55,713 nt of DNA from Acidocella sp. GTDB lineage: Bacteria > Pseudomonadota > Alphaproteobacteria > Acetobacterales > Acetobacteraceae. Each line of letters starts with the position of its first letter. Position 1 is the first letter of the stretch. The position numbers and the translations under genes were made by a program. The notes beneath the pieces are model-generated. The model had not been told where the DNA came from. It ran no database searches and was given only the letters and a program-made list of their open reading frames with translations. Location of the stretch: assembly GCA_026224875.1 (NCBI GenBank), contig JAMFRU010000045.1, positions 1 to 55,713 of the forward strand, read 5' to 3'. Shown here piece by piece: positions 17,709 through 51,700 of the stretch.

Positions 17709-18347
17709 GTGTTCGGCAAACGTAAGCTCGAAGACGCCGCAACGGCCAAGCCGCAACCGCCAGCCGCGGGGGTGAGTACGCAAGCCGATCCGCCGGCCGC
17801 GCCTGCCGAACCGCACGCTGACGCCGGTCCGGACGCTTCAGTAGAGAATACAAATCCGGCCGATGCTGCCCCCTTCCCCCAAAGCCTTAAGGAGTTCCCC
17901 ATGGCACGTTCGCCCTTCGCCCCGCCCCCCATTCCCTCGGCCCCGGCCAGCGTGCCCGCCCGCGCCACCGTTACCAGCACCCCCGCGCGCGACGCCTCGC
18001 TGGAACGCCGCACCCTCGTCGTCGGCCGCGGCATTAGCGTGCAGGGCACCGTGCAGGACGCCGAACGCCTGGTGGTTGAAGGCACCGTGGAAGCCACCAG
18101 CATCAATGGGCTGATCGAACTCTCCATCGCCCACGGCGGCGTGTTCAAAGGCGAAGTCGAAGTCGAGGAAGCCGAAATCGCCGGCACCATCGATGGCACC
18201 CTCGTCGCCCGCCAAACCCTCGTCGTCCGCGCCACCGGCCGCATCCTCGGCGTGGCCCGCTGCCGCCGCCTGCAAGTAGAAGACGGCGGCCAAATCACCG
18301 GCCGCATCGAGATGCTGACCGATGCTTCGGTGCTGTCTGAGGTATAG
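17709..18347 (+). CDS. Bactofilin family cytoskeletal protein
   Basis: 212 residues starting with GTG (MFGKRKLE), a GGAGGA site 4-8 bases before it. A Pro/Ala-rich disordered N-terminal region (about 1-95) precedes the bactofilin beta-helix (RTLVVGRGISVQGTVQDAERLVVEGTVEATSINGLIELSIAHGGVFKGEVEVEEAEIAGTIDGTLVARQTLVVRATGRILGVARCRRLQVEDGGQITGRIE). Bactofilins self-assemble without nucleotide and scaffold cell-wall enzymes. Its closeness to the mre/rodA/murI cluster fits a shape role. The last codons and the TAG stop lie inside a large palindrome shared with gshB. Confidence 0.93.
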   Translation: MFGKRKLEDAATAKPQPPAAGVSTQADPPAAPAEPHADAGPDASVENTNPADAAPFPQSLKEFPMARSPFAPPPIPSAPASVPARATVTSTPARDASLERRTLVVGRGISVQGTVQDAERLVVEGTVEATSINGLIELSIAHGGVFKGEVEVEEAEIAGTIDGTLVARQTLVVRATGRILGVARCRRLQVEDGGQITGRIEMLTDASVLSEV

Positions 18348-18589
18348 ACCTCGGTTTGGGGTTAAAAAAAGGCGAGGGCTCTGCCCCTCGACCCCGCTGG
18401 GGCCTGAGGCCCCAGCCCCCCGCTACCTGAGAACTAAAAAAGAGGCCTGCTTCCACGCTGTTTCAACAGCTAGGCGGCAGGCCTCTTTTTTAGTTCTTAA
18501 GCTAATGGGGTCTGGGCCTCAGGCCCAGTGGGGGTCGAGGGGGCAAAGCCCCTCGCCTTTTTAACCCCAAACCGAGGTCTATACCTCAG
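18337..18589. repeat. 253-bp nested palindrome covering the stop codons of bactofilin and gshB
   Basis: 18337-18363 is the exact reverse complement of 18563-18589, and similarity continues inward with few mismatches to about 18420 and 18505. Inside each arm are further palindromes (18397-18415 and 18512-18528). A perfect 20-bp terminator stem lies at the centre. Both convergent genes end within the arms (TAG at 18345-18347; TGA on the minus strand at 18588-18586). Confidence 0.9.
18431..18496. terminator. Bidirectional terminator at the palindrome centre
   Basis: gaactaaaaaagaggcctgc (18431-18450) pairs exactly with 18477-18496, with a 26-base loop. Read in either direction the GC part is followed by a T-run and TAGTTC, so it should stop transcripts from bactofilin and from gshB alike. 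Confidence 0.82.
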
Positions 18590-19533
18590 GCCGCACGGAT
18601 GGCTTCGATCTTCGTCCAGATTTGGGCGGAGAGGTTTAGGTTGTTGAAGCGGGCTATTTGTTGGAGGCCGGTGGGGCTGGTTACGTTGATTTCGGTTAGG
18701 TAGTTGCCGATGACGTCTATGCCGGTGAAGAGCAGGCCTTGGGCTTTTAGGGTGGGGCCTATGGCGGCGCAGATTTCGTGTTCGCGTTCTGTGAGTGTTG
18801 TGGCTTCGGGTGTGCCGCCGGCGTGCATGTTGGAGCGCGAGTCGCCTTCCGCTGGCACGCGGTTTATGGCGCCTGCGGGTTCGCCGTCTATGAGGATGAT
18901 GCGTTTGTCGCCTTTGCGCACGGCGGCTTCGTAGCGTTGCACCATGAGGGGCTCGCGGGTGGCGGCGAAGAACATATCGAGCAGCGAGCCGAGGTTTTCG
19001 TCATCGGGTTTGATGCGGAACACGCCGATGCCGCCGTTGCCGAACAGCGGCTTGACGATGATGTCCTTATGCAAAGCGCGGAAATCGCGAATGGATTGCC
19101 GGTCCCAGGTGACGATGGTGGGCGGCATGAGATGCGGGAAATGCGTGACGAGGAGTTTTTCGGGCGCGTTGCGCACCGCGGCCGGGTTGTTCACCACCAG
19201 GGTTTGCGGGTGGATATGCTCCAGCATATGGGTGGCGGTGATATAGGCCATGTCGAAGGGCGGGTCCTGGCGCATCAGCACCACGTCCATTTCGGCGAGG
19301 TTGATCAGCGTTTCGGGGCCGAATTCGTAATGCGCGCCGTGGATGTTCTGCACGGTTACCGGCTGCACGCGGGCGAACAGGCGGTTGCCGTCCAGCCACA
19401 TGTGCCGCACCTCGTAATGCCAGAGCTTGTGGCCGCGGGTTTGGGCTTCCAGCATCAGCGCAAAGGTGGAGTCGCCGGTGATGTCGATGCTGTGCAGCGG
19501 GTCCATCTGCACGGCTATTTTCAGTGGTTTCAT
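18586..19533 (-). CDS. gshB: Glutathione synthetase (prokaryotic type)
   Basis: About 315 residues from the ATG at 19533, with an AGAGGA upstream. It begins MKPLKIAVQMDPLHSIDITGDSTFALMLEAQ, the standard GshB start. The ATP-grasp segments are IIVKPLFGNGGIGVFRI (about 150), PLMVQRYEAA, and GIDVIGNYLTEINVTSPTG (about 285). It joins gamma-glutamylcysteine and glycine to make glutathione. It converges on bactofilin with the nested palindrome between. A glutathione reductase gene is present at 39.6 kb. Confidence 0.95.
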   Translation of the reverse strand: MKPLKIAVQMDPLHSIDITGDSTFALMLEAQTRGHKLWHYEVRHMWLDGNRLFARVQPVTVQNIHGAHYEFGPETLINLAEMDVVLMRQDPPFDMAYITATHMLEHIHPQTLVVNNPAAVRNAPEKLLVTHFPHLMPPTIVTWDRQSIRDFRALHKDIIVKPLFGNGGIGVFRIKPDDENLGSLLDMFFAATREPLMVQRYEAAVRKGDKRIILIDGEPAGAINRVPAEGDSRSNMHAGGTPEATTLTEREHEICAAIGPTLKAQGLLFTGIDVIGNYLTEINVTSPTGLQQIARFNNLNLSAQIWTKIEAIRAA

Positions 19534-44400: not shown

Positions 44401-44871
44401 ATGGCAGAATGCTGCACCTGCGAAGATTCATTGTGGCCATTACTGACGAGGTTCGTTTTGCGCTCTTATAATTATCTTATCAGCGACGCCGGTTCAGCAG
44501 AAGGACATTATGTCGAATTGCTGGAAACCAGGCTTGTGGAATTGCTGCAGGCGCTTCTAATCCAGGTGCATGTGGACGAAACCTGGTATCTGACCGCCTA
44601 CCCCGACGTCGCCAGCGCGGTAAAGCGCGGTGACATGAAATCGGGGCGCGACCATTTCATCCGCTCCGGCTATTTCGAGAACCGGCTGCCCGGGCCCATT
44701 CATGTGGATGAGCGCTGGTACCTCGACGAATATCCCGACGTGGCGGGGGCAATCAAATCCGGCGCCTTCAGAAATGGGCAGCAACATTTCGAGCGCAGCG
44801 GCTTCAAGGAAGGCCGGCTGCCCAAGGCCGGGTGGTCCCTGCTCAGCCAAGCGGCGTCGATCGCTGCTTAG
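44401..44871 (+). CDS. Two-repeat YPDV-domain protein, function unknown
   Basis: 156 residues. Two tandem copies of a module of about 40 residues: HVDETWYLTAYPDVASAVKRG, then the tail GRDHFIRSGYFENRLPG; and HVDERWYLDEYPDVAGAIKSG, then GQQHFERSGFKEGRLPK. The pattern (WYLxxYPDVAxAIxxG...GxxHFxxSGxxExR) occurs in bacterial surface and glycosyltransferase-associated proteins, including in multiple copies. Residues 1-55 are unrelated and could include an additional helix. No signal peptide. Divergent from the double glycosyltransferase, suggesting work on the same glycan or partner. The stop lies in a 15-bp tandem repeat. Confidence 0.75.
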   Translation: MAECCTCEDSLWPLLTRFVLRSYNYLISDAGSAEGHYVELLETRLVELLQALLIQVHVDETWYLTAYPDVASAVKRGDMKSGRDHFIRSGYFENRLPGPIHVDERWYLDEYPDVAGAIKSGAFRNGQQHFERSGFKEGRLPKAGWSLLSQAASIAA

Positions 44872-45863: not shown

Positions 45864-46778
45864 ATGCGCATTCTCTTCATCACCTCCTCCCGTATCGGCG
45901 ACGCCGTGATCTCCTGCGGCATTTTAGAGCGGCTGCGGCTGGAACATCCCGGCGCGCGCTTTACCATCGCCTGCGGCACGGTGGCGGAGGGGGTTTTTAC
46001 CCGCTTCCCCGCCCTGGAACGGCTGATCGGCTTCGAAAAAGAGGGGTTCGACCTGCATTGGTTGAAACTCTGGGGCAAAACAGCGCTGAACCTCTGGGAC
46101 CTGGTCGTGGATGTGCGCGGTTCCGGGATTTCGTTCTTCCTCGCCACCAAACGCCGCAAAATCCTGCGCGGCGGCCGCCGGCCAGGGCGGCGCTACGTGC
46201 AGCTGGGCGATGCCTTTGGGTTTGCCCCCGCCCCTCTACCCGTGGCCTGGACCGCCCCCGCCGATGAGGCCAAGGCCGCGGCGCTACTCGGCGACGCCCC
46301 GATCATCGCCCTCGGCCCCACCGCCAATTGGGATGGCAAAATCTGGCCGCCCGAGCGTTTCATCGCTCTCTACCACGCCCTTGCCCTGCACATCCCCGGT
46401 GCCCGGCCCGCCATTTTCGGCGGTCCAGGTGAGGCGGAAGCCCGCCGCGCCGCCCCCGTGCTGGCCGCCCTCCCCGCTGCCATCAACCTCACCGGCACCC
46501 TCACCCTCCCGGAAGCCGCCGCCTGCCTGCGCCGCGTTCACATTTTCATCGGCAATGATTCCGGGCTGATGCACCTCGCCGCCGCCGCCGGTACCCCGAC
46601 TTTGGGCCTGTTCGGCCGCTCCAAGGCCAGCGAATACGCCCCCGCCGGTCCGCGCACCGCCATCGCCGTGGCACCCGGCCCCGAAGGTGATGCCCCGATG
46701 GAGGGGTTGAATGTTGACGCCGTGCTCGAAGCGGCGTGTTCTCTGCTGGATATAAAGGTGGCCGCCCATGAGCACTGA
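45864..46778 (+). CDS. Glycosyltransferase family 9 (heptosyltransferase-like)
   Basis: 304 residues from ATG at 45864 (an in-frame ATG at 45852 adds four). N-terminal MRILFITSSRIGDAVISCGILERL and the C-terminal HIFIGNDSGLMHLAAAAGTPTLGLFG are the GT9 hallmarks; IIALGPTANWDGKIWPPERF lies between. GT9 enzymes add heptose to the lipopolysaccharide inner core or related glycans. Acceptor unknown. Overlaps the dihydroorotase start by 11 bases, so the two are translationally coupled, which is an odd mix of pathways. Confidence 0.9.
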   Translation: MRILFITSSRIGDAVISCGILERLRLEHPGARFTIACGTVAEGVFTRFPALERLIGFEKEGFDLHWLKLWGKTALNLWDLVVDVRGSGISFFLATKRRKILRGGRRPGRRYVQLGDAFGFAPAPLPVAWTAPADEAKAAALLGDAPIIALGPTANWDGKIWPPERFIALYHALALHIPGARPAIFGGPGEAEARRAAPVLAALPAAINLTGTLTLPEAAACLRRVHIFIGNDSGLMHLAAAAGTPTLGLFGRSKASEYAPAGPRTAIAVAPGPEGDAPMEGLNVDAVLEAACSLLDIKVAAHEH

Positions 46779-48102
46779 TAGTTACGATCTGATCATCGAA
46801 AATGGCACCGCGGTGCTCCCCTGGGGCGAGGCCTCCGCCGATATCGGTGTGCGCAACGGCAAAATCGCCGCCATCGGCAAAAACCTCGGCCCCGCGCGCG
46901 AAACTTTTAACGCCGCCGGCCTGCACGTCCTGCCCGGCATCATCGACCCGCATGTGCATTTCCGCGACGGCGGCGAAGGCGGCATCCCCGGCGTGGAGGA
47001 CATGCGCTCCGGCTCGCTCGCCGCCGTGCTGGGCGGTGTGACCACGGCACTGGACATGCCCAACACCAAACCGCCCACGGTCGATGCAGCCACCGTAAAA
47101 CTAAAATACGACTACATCCCCGGCCACACCTATTGCGATTTCGGTTTTTACGCTGGCGCCACCAAGGAAAACGCCGATTACGTGGGCACTCTTGAAGACA
47201 TGCCCGGCGTGTGCGCGGTAAAAGTCTTCGCGGGTTCCTCCACCGGCGATCTGCTCGTGGAAGATGACGCCAGCATCGAGCGCGTGCTGCGCGGCTCGCG
47301 CCATCTCGTCGCCTTCCACGCCGAAGACGAATACCGGTTACGTGAACGCAGACCCCGTTTCTCCGTCGGTGACCCCTACGCCAGCCACGCCGAATGGCGC
47401 GACCCGGAATGTGCCGCGCTGGGCACCCGCCGCGTTACAGCACTGGCCCGCAAGACCAACAAGCGCGCGCATATCCTGCATGTTTCCACAATCGATGAAT
47501 TCGCCTTCATCCGCGAAAACAAGGATATCATCTCCGCCGAAGTGCTGGTGAACCACCTGCTGCAGATCGGCCCCGAAGCCTATGAGCGCCTCGGCGGCTA
47601 CGCGGTGATGAACCCGCCCATCCGCTCCCAGGAGCACGTAAACGCAGCCTGGGCCGCCATCGCCGACGGTACCGCCGACACCATCGCCTCCGACCACGCC
47701 CCGCATTCGAAAGAATCCAAGGAGCGCCCCTGGCCCACCTGCCACTCCGGCCTCACCGGCGTGCAAACCATGCTCCCGCTGATGCTCACCCAGGTAAACG
47801 CCGGCCGCCTCTCCCTCATGCGCCTGGTGGACCTCATGTCCGCCGGCCCGGCGCGAATTTATGGCGCCGTCGGCAAGGGCCGCATCGCCGCCGGGTATGA
47901 TGCGGATTTCTCAATCGTCGACATGAACGCCAAACGTAAAATCGAGAACTCCATGATCGCCAGCCAATGCGGCTGGACCCCCTTCGCCGGCACCCAATGC
48001 ACCGCCTGGCCCATGGCCACGATTATTCGGGGTACGGTGGTGATGTTTGAAGGTACGGTACCGGGCGAGCCGTTGGGCCAGGTCATCAAGTTCCGCAAGT
48101 AA
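46768..48102 (+). CDS. pyrC: Dihydroorotase (amidohydrolase superfamily)
   Basis: 444 residues. The metal-binding HxH is in IIDPHVHFRDGG (about 60-71), the bridging Lys in VCAVKVFAGSS (about 152), the further ligands in LVAFHAEDEYR, HILHVSTIDEF, and the catalytic Asp in TIASDHAPHSKE (about 309). This layout fits class I dihydroorotase (PyrC/AllB type), which closes carbamoyl aspartate in pyrimidine synthesis. AllB-type allantoinase is an alternative but no purine genes are nearby. The 3' end has a diverged partial copy at 49604-49716. Confidence 0.87.
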   Translation: MSTDSYDLIIENGTAVLPWGEASADIGVRNGKIAAIGKNLGPARETFNAAGLHVLPGIIDPHVHFRDGGEGGIPGVEDMRSGSLAAVLGGVTTALDMPNTKPPTVDAATVKLKYDYIPGHTYCDFGFYAGATKENADYVGTLEDMPGVCAVKVFAGSSTGDLLVEDDASIERVLRGSRHLVAFHAEDEYRLRERRPRFSVGDPYASHAEWRDPECAALGTRRVTALARKTNKRAHILHVSTIDEFAFIRENKDIISAEVLVNHLLQIGPEAYERLGGYAVMNPPIRSQEHVNAAWAAIADGTADTIASDHAPHSKESKERPWPTCHSGLTGVQTMLPLMLTQVNAGRLSLMRLVDLMSAGPARIYGAVGKGRIAAGYDADFSIVDMNAKRKIENSMIASQCGWTPFAGTQCTAWPMATIIRGTVVMFEGTVPGEPLGQVIKFRK

Positions 48103-48119
48103 ATAGAGTTTTCGGAAGT

Positions 48120-49478
48120 TTAGAAGGGACGGTAAACCAACCACATCGTAATGACGGTGCAAGCCGCCCCAGCCGCGGCATTCGCTGCCAGCACGCGGCG
48201 GACAATGTTCGCCCATGCCGGTACGCCAGCCGGCACCGCCGCCAGGTTTAATGTTAGCAACAGCAGTGCCGGAATAAGATGCCGCCCTTGCAGCATGTCT
48301 ACTCTGGGCCAGCCGACCGGCTCATAAACGAGATAAAGTAACGCAATCAAAGTATAGATCGTAACCGGCAGCAGCCCGGCCATCATTAGGCGATAGCCCG
48401 GCGCCAGCCTCGGCATATCGCATGTGAACGGCAAGGCCAGGAAACCCAGAAACAGAAAATCTATTTCCCAGCCCGGCAGGGAAATTTCCGGCGGCCAGCC
48501 GCCAAACATTCCAATAGCAGCCTGCAGCAGGAAAGGGCCGCCCCAAAGCAACCAGCGTGTGACAAACCAGGCCGTATAAAGCTTGTGGTGCAGAACAAAG
48601 GCCATCTGCCGTGCGCTGTCGTTCCCCTCGCCATGCCATACCATCAGCCCGTGGCTCACGGCGAGCCATGCCACACAGCTCAGCAGCCCCGCCAGGATGA
48701 TCAAGGCTGGCGTGCCATATCCCGCGCGCCGCCCGCTAAAACACGGCGCCAATGCCAAAAGCAGAACCGGCCCGTAAGCAGCCTTGGACATTGTCAGAAT
48801 AATCCCAGCCAATGCCGCAAGCAGTGCGCCACGAGCGGACCATGCACCGTTCCGATAAGCCCGCAGGCAAAGTGCGACGAATAGCAGCATCGCGGAGAAC
48901 ATCCCCGCATCCTGCGAGATCGAGGCGTCCAAATACAGTACCGTGGGCAACAATGCCATCAACAGCAGCGCGTAACGGCCAAAAGGCGCCAGCCGTAGAG
49001 CGGCGGCCGTCATCGCCAGAGCGGCGGCGAGATTGGCGAGCCGCGCCGCGTAGAAGCAGGCAAGCGCGCCGCCGCCAGCCAGCCGCGCCAGCGCAATGCC
49101 AGATGCCTGCGGCAGATAACTGATTGGCGCGTACAACACCGTCGCTGAAAAATCGGCAAAGACGGTTTGCTTCGGCGCCAGCTTCAAGCTCAGCCAGCCA
49201 AGGGTCGCGGCCAACCGCTGCGGCTCTACGGCAGGGACTTTATAAATCGCCAGCGAGCCCACAAGTCCCTTGACCAGCAGCGTGAGCGAGACCGGAATGT
49301 CACCCCCTGCCACCCCGCCTTGCGCACGGCCCAAACCCACGAGGCAGCTCACTTGATAGGCACGAAAGAAATGCTGGATTTCGTCATTCACCTGCAACGG
49401 CGGCATAATAAAGCAAAGCAGCAGCCCCGCCGGCACCGCAATGAACAGGTAGAAAATCCACAAACGTTGCCCGCTCAT
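48120..49478 (-). CDS. DUF2142 multi-spanning membrane protein
   Basis: About 452 residues from ATG at 49478. Around a dozen hydrophobic helices; typical opening FYLFIAVPAGLLLCFIMPPLQVNDEIQHFFRAYQVS (DEIQHFxRAY motif, about 8-43) and later PISYLPQASGIALARLAG and VLYLDASISQDAGMF. DUF2142 proteins are grouped with GT-C-like enzymes of surface glycan assembly; function unproven. Its ATG overlaps the TGA of a truncated histidine-kinase copy (ATGA), indicating an operon origin behind a kinase. Converges on the dihydroorotase with 17 bases between. Confidence 0.85.
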   Translation of the reverse strand: MSGQRLWIFYLFIAVPAGLLLCFIMPPLQVNDEIQHFFRAYQVSCLVGLGRAQGGVAGGDIPVSLTLLVKGLVGSLAIYKVPAVEPQRLAATLGWLSLKLAPKQTVFADFSATVLYAPISYLPQASGIALARLAGGGALACFYAARLANLAAALAMTAAALRLAPFGRYALLLMALLPTVLYLDASISQDAGMFSAMLLFVALCLRAYRNGAWSARGALLAALAGIILTMSKAAYGPVLLLALAPCFSGRRAGYGTPALIILAGLLSCVAWLAVSHGLMVWHGEGNDSARQMAFVLHHKLYTAWFVTRWLLWGGPFLLQAAIGMFGGWPPEISLPGWEIDFLFLGFLALPFTCDMPRLAPGYRLMMAGLLPVTIYTLIALLYLVYEPVGWPRVDMLQGRHLIPALLLLTLNLAAVPAGVPAWANIVRRVLAANAAAGAACTVITMWLVYRPF

Positions 49479-49605
49479 ACCGGCAGCTCGATCGCCATCC
49501 TCAGACCTCCTCGCGGCCGGTCCCGCAGCAGGATCGAACCGCCATGGGCTACAACGATATCCTGGATCATAGCAAGTCCCAGGCCGGTACTTGCCGGTGC
49601 GTTGC
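49475..49605 (-). pseudogene. 3' fragment of a second histidine kinase gene
   Basis: The minus strand encodes TGLGLAMIQDIVVAHGGSI then LLRDRPRGGLRMAIELPV and a stop, matching the last 42 residues or so of the intact kinase (GLGLAIAHDIIVAHGGSILL..DRPQGGLRVAIELPV) over 50372-50502. The first 27 bases around the stop are identical, the remainder is diverged. It is cut at 49605 where dihydroorotase sequence begins, so the rest of the gene is missing. Its TGA overlaps the DUF2142 ATG. Confidence 0.85.
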
Positions 49606-49716
49606 ACCCACTGCACCGCCTGACCCATGGCCACCATCATCCGCGGCCAGATGGTGATGTTCGAAGGCACCGTGCCGGGCGAGCCGCTGGGGCAGGTGAT
49701 CAAATTCCGGAAGTGA
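49604..49716 (+). pseudogene. 3' fragment of a second dihydroorotase gene
   Basis: Aligns without gaps with 47990-48102, the end of pyrC: 20 differences in 113 bases, 15 of them synonymous. It encodes PMATIIRGQMVMFEGTVPG then EPLGQVIKFRK and TGA. A conserved Trp codon has become TGA, and only the last 37 codons remain, so it is non-functional. It is joined to the kinase fragment at a GC dinucleotide shared by both (49604-49605). Confidence 0.88.
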
Positions 49717-49773
49717 TGCCCTGCCTGCGATTCTGGACTTGATGTCGGGCATCGCCCACCTCATCTCGAGGCA

Positions 49774-50346
49774 ATGAAAATTGCCATCCTCGGTTGGGGC
49801 TCGCTGCTCTGGGACCCCAAAGACCTGCAATGCGCAACCCAGTTTGAGCTCACCGGGCCCAGCCTGCCCATCGAGTTCTGCCGCATCTCAAAAGACCATC
49901 GCCTCACGCTTATCATCGACGAAGACTTTGGCACGCTTTGCCAGACTTACGCCGCCACAAGCGCCTTCAACACGCTGGAAGAAGCCATGGAGAATCTGCG
50001 CCTGCGCGAGGGCATGTTCAGCGTCGCCGATGTCGGTTTTGTTGAACTGCACAGCCAGGAACGCAGCCGCGTCGCCGTTAAGCGCCATCCGCATGTGGTG
50101 GAGAGCATCGCCGATTGGGCACTGCACGCCGGCTACGAGGCCGTGATCTGGACCGCGCTTGAAAGCCATTTCGAAGACCGGACCACGGAACCTTTCTCCG
50201 TAAGTGCTGCCATGCGCTACCTGGAAGCACTGAAACAACGCGACGGGCAAGTTTTTGCGCGCGCGCTCACTTATATCCGCCGCGCGCCTGACGCGACGCA
50301 GACTCCCGTCCGCGAGCGCACCGCCGCCCAGTGGCCTGAGGCTTAA
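49774..50346 (+). CDS. Gamma-glutamylcyclotransferase-like hypothetical protein
   Basis: 190 residues. The start MKIAILGWGSLLWDPKDLQ and following GPSLPIEFCRISKDHRLTLIIDEDFGTLCQTYAATSAF suggest a GGCT-like fold (GYGSLxW analog), but it is a distant match; conserved hypotheticals with GWGSLIWDP are widespread. The rest (VESIADWALHAGYEAVIWTALESHFEDRTTEPFSVSAAMRYLEAL) is helical. The only GA-rich motif before ATG is too close (2 bases). It sits between the dihydroorotase remnant and the kinase; it may be the alternative cargo of this locus. Confidence 0.72.
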   Translation: MKIAILGWGSLLWDPKDLQCATQFELTGPSLPIEFCRISKDHRLTLIIDEDFGTLCQTYAATSAFNTLEEAMENLRLREGMFSVADVGFVELHSQERSRVAVKRHPHVVESIADWALHAGYEAVIWTALESHFEDRTTEPFSVSAAMRYLEALKQRDGQVFARALTYIRRAPDATQTPVRERTAAQWPEA

Positions 50347-50371
50347 CCACCGGCCAGATCGTAACGGCCGC

Positions 50372-51700
50372 TCATACCGGCAGCTCGATCGCCACGCGCA
50401 ATCCCCCCTGCGGCCGGTCCAATAGCAATATTGAGCCGCCGTGGGCAACGATAATATCATGCGCAATCGCCAGCCCCAGCCCGGTGCCGCCGGGGGCGTT
50501 GCTTTCAAACGGTTTCAGCAATGTCTTGCGCTGCGCCTCGGGAATCCCCGGCCCATCGTCGTCGATATTGATGTTCAGCCAACCCCGCCCGCTGCGGTGT
50601 GCGGCCACCCAGATGTGGTTGCCGTGACGTTTGGCGTTGTCGATGAGGTTGGTCAAAGCGCGGCGCATGGCTTCGGGGCGGAGCGTCACCACCAGCCCAG
50701 TTTCCACGCTCAATGAGATGGACGCATTGGCGCGGCGGGCGTTGATGCAGATTTCCTCCAGCAGCGCCGGCATGTCTGTTGCCACCGCCTGCTCGCTTCC
50801 CTCACCGCGCGCAAAATTCAGATAGATGCCGATGAGCCGCTCCATCTCCTCGATGTCGCCGGTCATGTCGGCGAGGTCTTCGGGCGTAACATGCGGCTGC
50901 ATGGCAAGTGCCAGGCGCAGCCGGGTTATGGGCGTACGCAGATCATGGCTCACACCGGCCAGCATGGTGGTGCGCTGGGCCATGAAGCGGCGCACCCGCT
51001 CCTGCATGCGGTTGAAGGCGGCGGCGGCGCGGCGTACTTCCACCGCCCCTTCCGGGCGGATCGGCCCGGTATCGCGCCCCATGCCGAACCGCTCCGCCGC
51101 CAGCGCCAGGCGCGAGATGCCCCGCACCTGGGTGCGCAAAAACAATGCCGCGATACCCGCCATCAGCACGGATGTGCCGATCACCCAGGTGAGAAACAGA
51201 TAGAACGTGCCAATGAACAATCGTTTGCGCGGCACATCGATGCGCAGCACGCCATCGGGCATCTGCACGTTCACGCGGATGATCCCCGGCGAGCTGTACC
51301 AGGCGACATTGAACGGCCGGTGCAGCTCGGCCGCCAAGGCGCGGGCGAGGTCGGTATCCACCGGCCCGGGCGCATCGGGTGCCGGCAGACGCCCCAGCAT
51401 CTGGTTCGGGGTGAACACGGTATTGAACTGAAAATGCTGGTCGGTTTCCTGGATGATCAGGTTGCGCGTCGCAGGATACCGGTCGATCTCGTCGATCATG
51501 AACCCAACCTCGCCGGCCACCCCGCCGGACAGCCGGCGCGAGAGTTCGGTGAGATGGTTGCCGTAGAACATCTGCAGCGCCACGGCTTCCAGCAGCACCA
51601 GGGGCAGCAGCACGATGAGCAAGGAACGCCCAAACAGCCCGCGCGGCAGGATTTTGCGCACGTAACGGTCGGGCGCCACCCCGCCGGGGCGGAGCCTCAC
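50372..51700 (-). CDS. Sensor histidine kinase, EnvZ/OmpR type
   Basis: 442 residues from GTG at 51700. Two membrane helices (SLLIVLLPLVLLEAVALQMFY, about 26-46; FYLFLTWVIGTSVLMAGIAALFL, about 166-188) flank a periplasmic domain of about 120 residues. HAMP (about 190-240), dimerisation box with phospho-acceptor H252 (AGVSHDLRTPITRLRLA), N-box NLIDNAKRHG (351-360), and DDGPGIP (381-387), GGTGLGLAIAHD (404-415). The periplasmic domain suggests an envelope or osmotic cue. It overlaps the regulator gene by 4 bases (GTGA). A short open frame MSGRYDLAGG, starting ATGAGCGG, overlaps its stop codon as a relic of a downstream gene. Confidence 0.93.
   Translation of the reverse strand: MRLRPGGVAPDRYVRKILPRGLFGRSLLIVLLPLVLLEAVALQMFYGNHLTELSRRLSGGVAGEVGFMIDEIDRYPATRNLIIQETDQHFQFNTVFTPNQMLGRLPAPDAPGPVDTDLARALAAELHRPFNVAWYSSPGIIRVNVQMPDGVLRIDVPRKRLFIGTFYLFLTWVIGTSVLMAGIAALFLRTQVRGISRLALAAERFGMGRDTGPIRPEGAVEVRRAAAAFNRMQERVRRFMAQRTTMLAGVSHDLRTPITRLRLALAMQPHVTPEDLADMTGDIEEMERLIGIYLNFARGEGSEQAVATDMPALLEEICINARRANASISLSVETGLVVTLRPEAMRRALTNLIDNAKRHGNHIWVAAHRSGRGWLNINIDDDGPGIPEAQRKTLLKPFESNAPGGTGLGLAIAHDIIVAHGGSILLLDRPQGGLRVAIELPV

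Follow-up and report, generated by a model that had tools for sequence, protein, structure and literature searches.

The DNA analysed here, called the window below, is a stretch of 55,713 bases that makes up one entire contig (C109) of a 3.87 Mb genome assembled in 145 contigs, with a completeness of 95.11 and a contamination of 1.62. Gene and domain calls in the window gave the same order as the original prediction had read from the letters: pyrC, a DUF2142 gene, the tail of a kinase gene, the tail of a pyrC gene, a GGCT-like gene and an intact kinase gene. Coordinates are collected in Table 1. Intact pyrC also matched Pfam Amidohydro_1, and its product shares 94% amino acid identity with that of G026, the nearest sampled species. 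The intact kinase is 90% identical to that of G026; its top NCBIfam match was EnvZ, at 209 bits, under the cutoff of 415. The ends of pyrC and of the DUF2142 gene are separated by 17 bases, and the GGCT-like gene is 25 bases from the kinase.

Table 1. Features between pyrC and the kinase gene, in window coordinates.
Feature	Position	Strand	Evidence
Intact pyrC (dihydroorotase)	46768..48102	+	NCBIfam PRK09060 dihydroorotase, 627 bits (cutoff 482)
Repeated 3′ end of intact pyrC	47990..48102	+	Repeat D2
DUF2142 membrane protein gene, 452 aa	48120..49478	-	Pfam DUF2142, 110 bits
Second kinase copy, 3′ fragment	49475..49605	-	96/131 identical to 50372-50502; repeat D1
Joint, shared GC	49604..49605	.	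Bases common to both fragments
Second pyrC copy, 3′ fragment, with in-frame TGA	49604..49716	+	93/113 identical to 47990-48102; repeat D2
GGCT-like gene, 190 aa, family unconfirmed	49774..50346	+	Homologues at 71-74% in 3/37 genus relatives
Intact EnvZ-like sensor histidine kinase	50372..51700	-	Pfam HATPase_c, HisKA, HAMP

Both tails align to the ends of the intact genes, as had been predicted. In a blastn search of the own genome the matches had E values of 3.7e-26 for the pyrC tail and 1.1e-17 for the kinase tail, and no further copy of either was listed at E ≤ 0.001. The two tails are also the only direct-repeat families of at least 70 nt that a repeat search reported in the window. Chance similarity is excluded. 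The fragments do meet at a common GC, and each runs to its own stop codon; in the pyrC tail an in-frame TGA replaces a tryptophan codon. The start codon of the DUF2142 gene overlaps the stop codon of the kinase fragment (ATGA) and, because such an overlap resembles that of coupled operon genes, the kinase-DUF2142 order appears to be the native one in that version of the locus. Directly after the stop codon of the intact kinase stands GCGG, the same four bases that follow the stop of the kinase fragment, where DUF2142 begins. This hints weakly at a former DUF2142 gene behind the intact kinase as well; the same GCGG is found after the kinase in 1 of 29 relatives (G007).

A joint with only two bases in common might also have been made by assembly or library preparation, as a chimera of two strains or species. 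Many of the relatives are metagenome bins, and the joint found no exact match in another collection, made up of viral contigs only. Assemblers, however, need overlaps far longer than 2 bases to join sequences, no run of N lies at the joint, and contamination of the genome is at the value given above. We regard a chimera as very unlikely.

The differences between tails and intact genes were then counted by class. In the original reading, 15 of 20 differences between the pyrC tail and pyrC were silent, and the copies had diverged under selection before one of them became a pseudogene. The first figure was recovered: 14 codon changes and the TAA/TGA difference are silent, and the other 5 bases cause replacement or nonsense changes. 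Over the 36 codons concerned, the pyrC tail differs from intact pyrC by 14.0 silent, 4 replacement and 1 nonsense changes, and intact pyrC differs from G026 by 14.5 silent and 8.5 replacement changes. Over the 42 codons of the kinase tail, the corresponding values are 23.2 silent and 11.8 replacement changes between tail and intact kinase, and 23.3 and 2.7 between intact kinase and G026. Since tail and intact gene are as far apart at silent sites as intact gene and G026, with too few replacements, the copies would have diverged mostly as working genes and been cut later. Because of its 11.8 replacements, against 2.7 for the intact kinase and G026, the kinase fragment does show relaxed constraint; the pyrC fragment hardly does so.

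These counts bear on the reading that takes the fewest steps to the present layout, namely one tandem duplication of a segment running from the pyrC 3′ end through a cargo gene to the kinase 3′ end, with GC as the duplication joint and a different cargo lost later from each copy. The joint does have the form of a duplication joint. The fragments, however, would then have been dead from birth. In tests that are rough, being built on hand counts, few codons (36 and 42) and simple models, a dead-from-birth fragment is expected to have about 62% (pyrC) and 55% (kinase) replacements, against 5/19 and 11.8/35 found (P 0.002 and 0.004); when the neutral model is relaxed by setting its silent fraction to 0.35, the values become P 0.019 and 0.018. 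Truncation at the time of the split from G026 would predict 18 and 22 replacements, where counting by hand gave no more than 3 and 9 (P 1.3e-5 and 0.0013). A single tandem duplication is thus quite improbable. On these few codons, divergence mostly under selection with truncation afterwards is supported, in agreement with the original prediction, rather than a duplication cut at birth.

Had the DUF2142 gene been neutral for as long as the fragments, a simple model would predict about 3.4 nonsense changes, and none was found (P 0.03). The GGCT-like gene is too short for the same test to be informative (P 0.24). In the last 36-42 codons of the intact genes (47992-48099 and 50375-50500), silent divergence between this genome and G026 is more than twice that of the rest of the gene: 1.03 vs 0.46 for pyrC, 1.40 vs 0.50 for the kinase. 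Against G017, the pyrC values are 0.72 for the end and 0.68 for the rest, with no such excess.

The boundary between pyrC and the kinase was compared across 38 genus genomes (own included), searched with the PyrC, kinase, GGCT-like and DUF2142 proteins. At E ≤ 1e-60 the kinase was absent in G020 and G030, and in a few fragmented genomes (e.g. G007, G013, G018) PyrC was present only as a fragment or a distant paralogue. The match to the kinase orthologue of G017 (C49:127581-128905) was split into two pieces that overlap and lie in different frames, so that this gene may be frameshifted or misread. Two blocks of the window are conserved, one around pyrC (about 38.7-48.1 kb) and one around the kinase (about 50.37-55.6 kb), and these lie apart in the relatives' stretches that were read; three genomes (G005, G017, G003) have pyrC and kinase on one contig, at distances of 32 to 62 kb. 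In a protein search of 29 pyrC loci, with flanks of at most 1.5 kb to either side, no relative of DUF2142, the GGCT-like protein or the kinase was found. Among the best 80 of 314 pyrC loci, with flanks of up to 6 kb (less at contig ends), a single kinase match was found, at 42%. Because the two blocks are separate in the relatives read, the pyrC-kinase boundary appears to be new in this lineage.

What lies next to each of the two genes varies among the relatives. The 28 relatives read after pyrC fell into 13 neighbour classes, and the 28 read after the kinase into 15, for flanks of at least 600 bp, with tblastx matches of more than 70 bits within the first 1000 bases taken as links, long non-coding gaps being able to inflate the number of classes. 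None of these 13 + 15 classes was linked to segments of the window. The sets exclude, for short flanks, pyrC of G025, G032 and G027 and the kinase of G035, as well as relatives without a fetched locus. The two kinase-side stretches of the window itself were linked together by the class script only because they overlap.

According to the original prediction, the spot between pyrC and the kinase is a variable cargo site across strains, so that a comparison of related genomes should uncover some with a single cargo gene between the same two flanks. The comparison gave no such case. Among the relatives examined, no genome had only the version with DUF2142 (version A) or only that with the GGCT-like gene (version B), and in 35 of 37 genus relatives, those readable on at least one side, partner gene and cargos were absent within 0.6-1.5 kb (G013 and G024 were unread on either side). 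We rejected the variable cargo site for the genus, where no neighbour class was linked; the comparison is one between species of the genus. The 3′ sides of pyrC and of the kinase are separately variable breakpoints, and a variable interval across species is not supported.

The two cargo genes were examined separately. The label GGCT-like, given at first reading, was not borne out: the protein has no Pfam, NCBIfam or PHROG match, a PDB sequence search gave chance-level matches (best E 0.08), and the structure model is poor (mean pLDDT of 49.7, from 5 sequences). Besides the homologues given in Table 1, short pieces were found in a fourth genus relative, and a draw of 397 genomes from the family gave G002 and G201 besides the own genome. 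Compared without gaps to the regions upstream of its homologues, the 60 bases upstream of the gene agree at 38 (G037), 27 (G002) and 29 (G004) positions, vs 16, 19 and 10 for the 60 bases on the side of the pyrC fragment. Because of this better match, the GGCT-like gene may have brought its own upstream region, although only the comparison with G037 is clear. DUF2142 matches occur in 26 of the 38 genus genomes (own included), with identities of 26-41%, some of them partial; the best by E-value is that of G029, at 36%. In the family draw, 13 of 397 genomes (own and G029 included) have one at E ≤ 1e-25, with identities of 31-41% apart from the own protein. The own genome holds several distant relatives of DUF2142 (about 29-34%), four of them clustered at C27:27781-33020 and others on C37 and C44.

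Searches of the genus, the family draw, plasmids and viral contigs found no donor of either version. Neither pyrC nor the kinase lies beside the cargo homologues in the loci fetched, whose flanks measured 5-7 kb in G037, G002, G004 and G029 and 1.5 kb in the others. On plasmids, all matches to the GGCT-like protein were below 60%, and the DNA search returned only kinase/regulator and dihydroorotase stretches. Marks of a mobile-element cargo site were also looked for: none of the genes that were identified between the flanks codes for a recombinase, the window has no direct repeat of at least 70 nt other than the two tails, and the viral contigs contained no relative of either cargo.

The original prediction also proposed xenologous integration, or unequal joining with a related locus. 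An illegitimate joint at GC fits; the evidence for a foreign origin is suggestive only. At several silent sites (ACC, ATC, TTC, GTG) the pyrC tail keeps codons common in near relatives, while intact pyrC and G026 share other codons there. The tree places the pyrC tail outside the pair formed by this genome and G026, by 7.6 log units, and the AU test rejects neither its grouping with this genome (p 0.139) nor that with G026 (p 0.079). For the kinase tail the tree gave no placement. Both trees were drawn from hand-picked rows (16 of 33 for pyrC, 17 of 31 for the kinase). With G026 as outgroup, unique changes number 11 in the pyrC fragment vs 5 in intact pyrC, and most other outgroups give the reverse. 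The identity profile of the flanks has no clear crossover point or switch of ancestry, and base composition showed nothing striking. The last 20 residues of the pyrC tail are those of the own PyrC, an end that no other relative in the alignment has; this would fit a close paralogue equally well, and tends to speak against a foreign origin.

A comparison of the two fragments with each other gave GC3 values of 33/36 for pyrC vs 27/42 for the kinase (P 0.006). Because of this difference, a single common donor for both seems doubtful, or else decay has been unequal. Replacements relative to the relatives, counted by hand, are 3 in the pyrC tail and 8-9 in the kinase tail (Fisher P 0.21), and private residues, counted by script, are 2 and 5.

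The main rival explanation dispenses with a donor. Two complete tandem copies would have arisen in this lineage, worked and diverged, with cargo genes gained or lost differently in each, until a deletion joined the kinase of copy 1 to pyrC of copy 2 at GC. Working divergence followed by late truncation would be accounted for in this way, as would the agreement between the last 20 residues of both PyrC ends, and the GCGG after the intact kinase might be what remains of a DUF2142 copy since lost. Such a four-base relic is weak, however, given its presence in G007. A second pyrC and a second kinase would also have to be retained for long, and no second close copy was listed in the relatives, whose other PyrC matches are paralogues at about 30% or pieces at contig ends. 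We consider this history unlikely.

The explanation that we prefer, and to which we give about an even chance, is that an illegitimate event, perhaps between species, joined two versions of a lineage-specific boundary after they had diverged, which would make 47990-50502 a recombination scar. In this Acidocella-like lineage, pyrC and the kinase would have become convergent neighbours, which they are not in the relatives read. Two versions of the boundary, one with DUF2142 and one with the GGCT-like gene, would then have diverged for about as long as this species and G026, the flanking genes of both staying functional meanwhile, as the silent and replacement counts show on few codons. The versions would later have met in one chromosome, most likely by entry of DNA from a related lineage. 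We infer the joining step on the model of homology-facilitated illegitimate recombination: homology would have acted on one side, while on the other an illegitimate event at GC would have fused the 3′ ends of one kinase gene and one pyrC gene, each within its middle part. Since then both cut tails would have decayed, and both cargo genes are still open.

Homology-facilitated illegitimate recombination is described in Acinetobacter, Pseudomonas stutzeri and Streptococcus pneumoniae as producing an illegitimate joint of low homology beside a shared flank, through which new cargo is brought in (PMC2884548). The present locus resembles its products in having a joint with little homology (two bases, GC) beside a shared flank, and new cargo; it differs in that the side of the homologous crossover is not visible and that foreignness is only suggested. 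The nearest concept is that of dimorphic loci, or small variable segments, in which alternatives are found in different strains (Touzain et al. 2010, PMC2884548). Here too, two alternative segments are tied to the same two flanks, but they stand in tandem in one chromosome, and among the genus relatives we found no strain or species with one segment alone between these flanks. Tandem merodiploids obtained by transformation are described as forming by pairing at repeats common to donor and host (PMC3784515). Like them, the locus has tandem copies with a new joint, but its copies have diverged, and the overlap at the joint is of 2 bases. A literature search, judged by titles, found nothing on this locus. 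We conclude that it is a real scar of known processes, that is, of ordinary genome shuffling, found in one lineage only, and not a new system.

Products of illegitimate joining seldom reveal the previous state of a locus. Two versions are preserved here with the cut tails of their flanks, so that the divergence which preceded the joint can be separated from the decay which followed. Tentatively, and with more doubt than for the scar itself, the locus may have recorded, in nature and in datable form, how two species' DNA was joined illegitimately, with the resident boundary and that of a sister species side by side, each with its own cargo. If so, all three stages would be readable: the earlier divergence, the joint and the later decay. 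The locus also calls for caution, in that alternative versions in tandem need not imply a variable site across species, the boundary having been found in this lineage alone.

Two further features were noted elsewhere in the window. An ORF of 156 aa at 44401-44871 has an internal repeat of about 40 residues, in two copies around DE.WYL..YPDVA. At 18327-18419 and 18507-18599 lies an inverted repeat with arms of 93 nt, 78% complementary, and a spacer of 87 nt; no second inverted pair of at least 70 nt was reported for the window.
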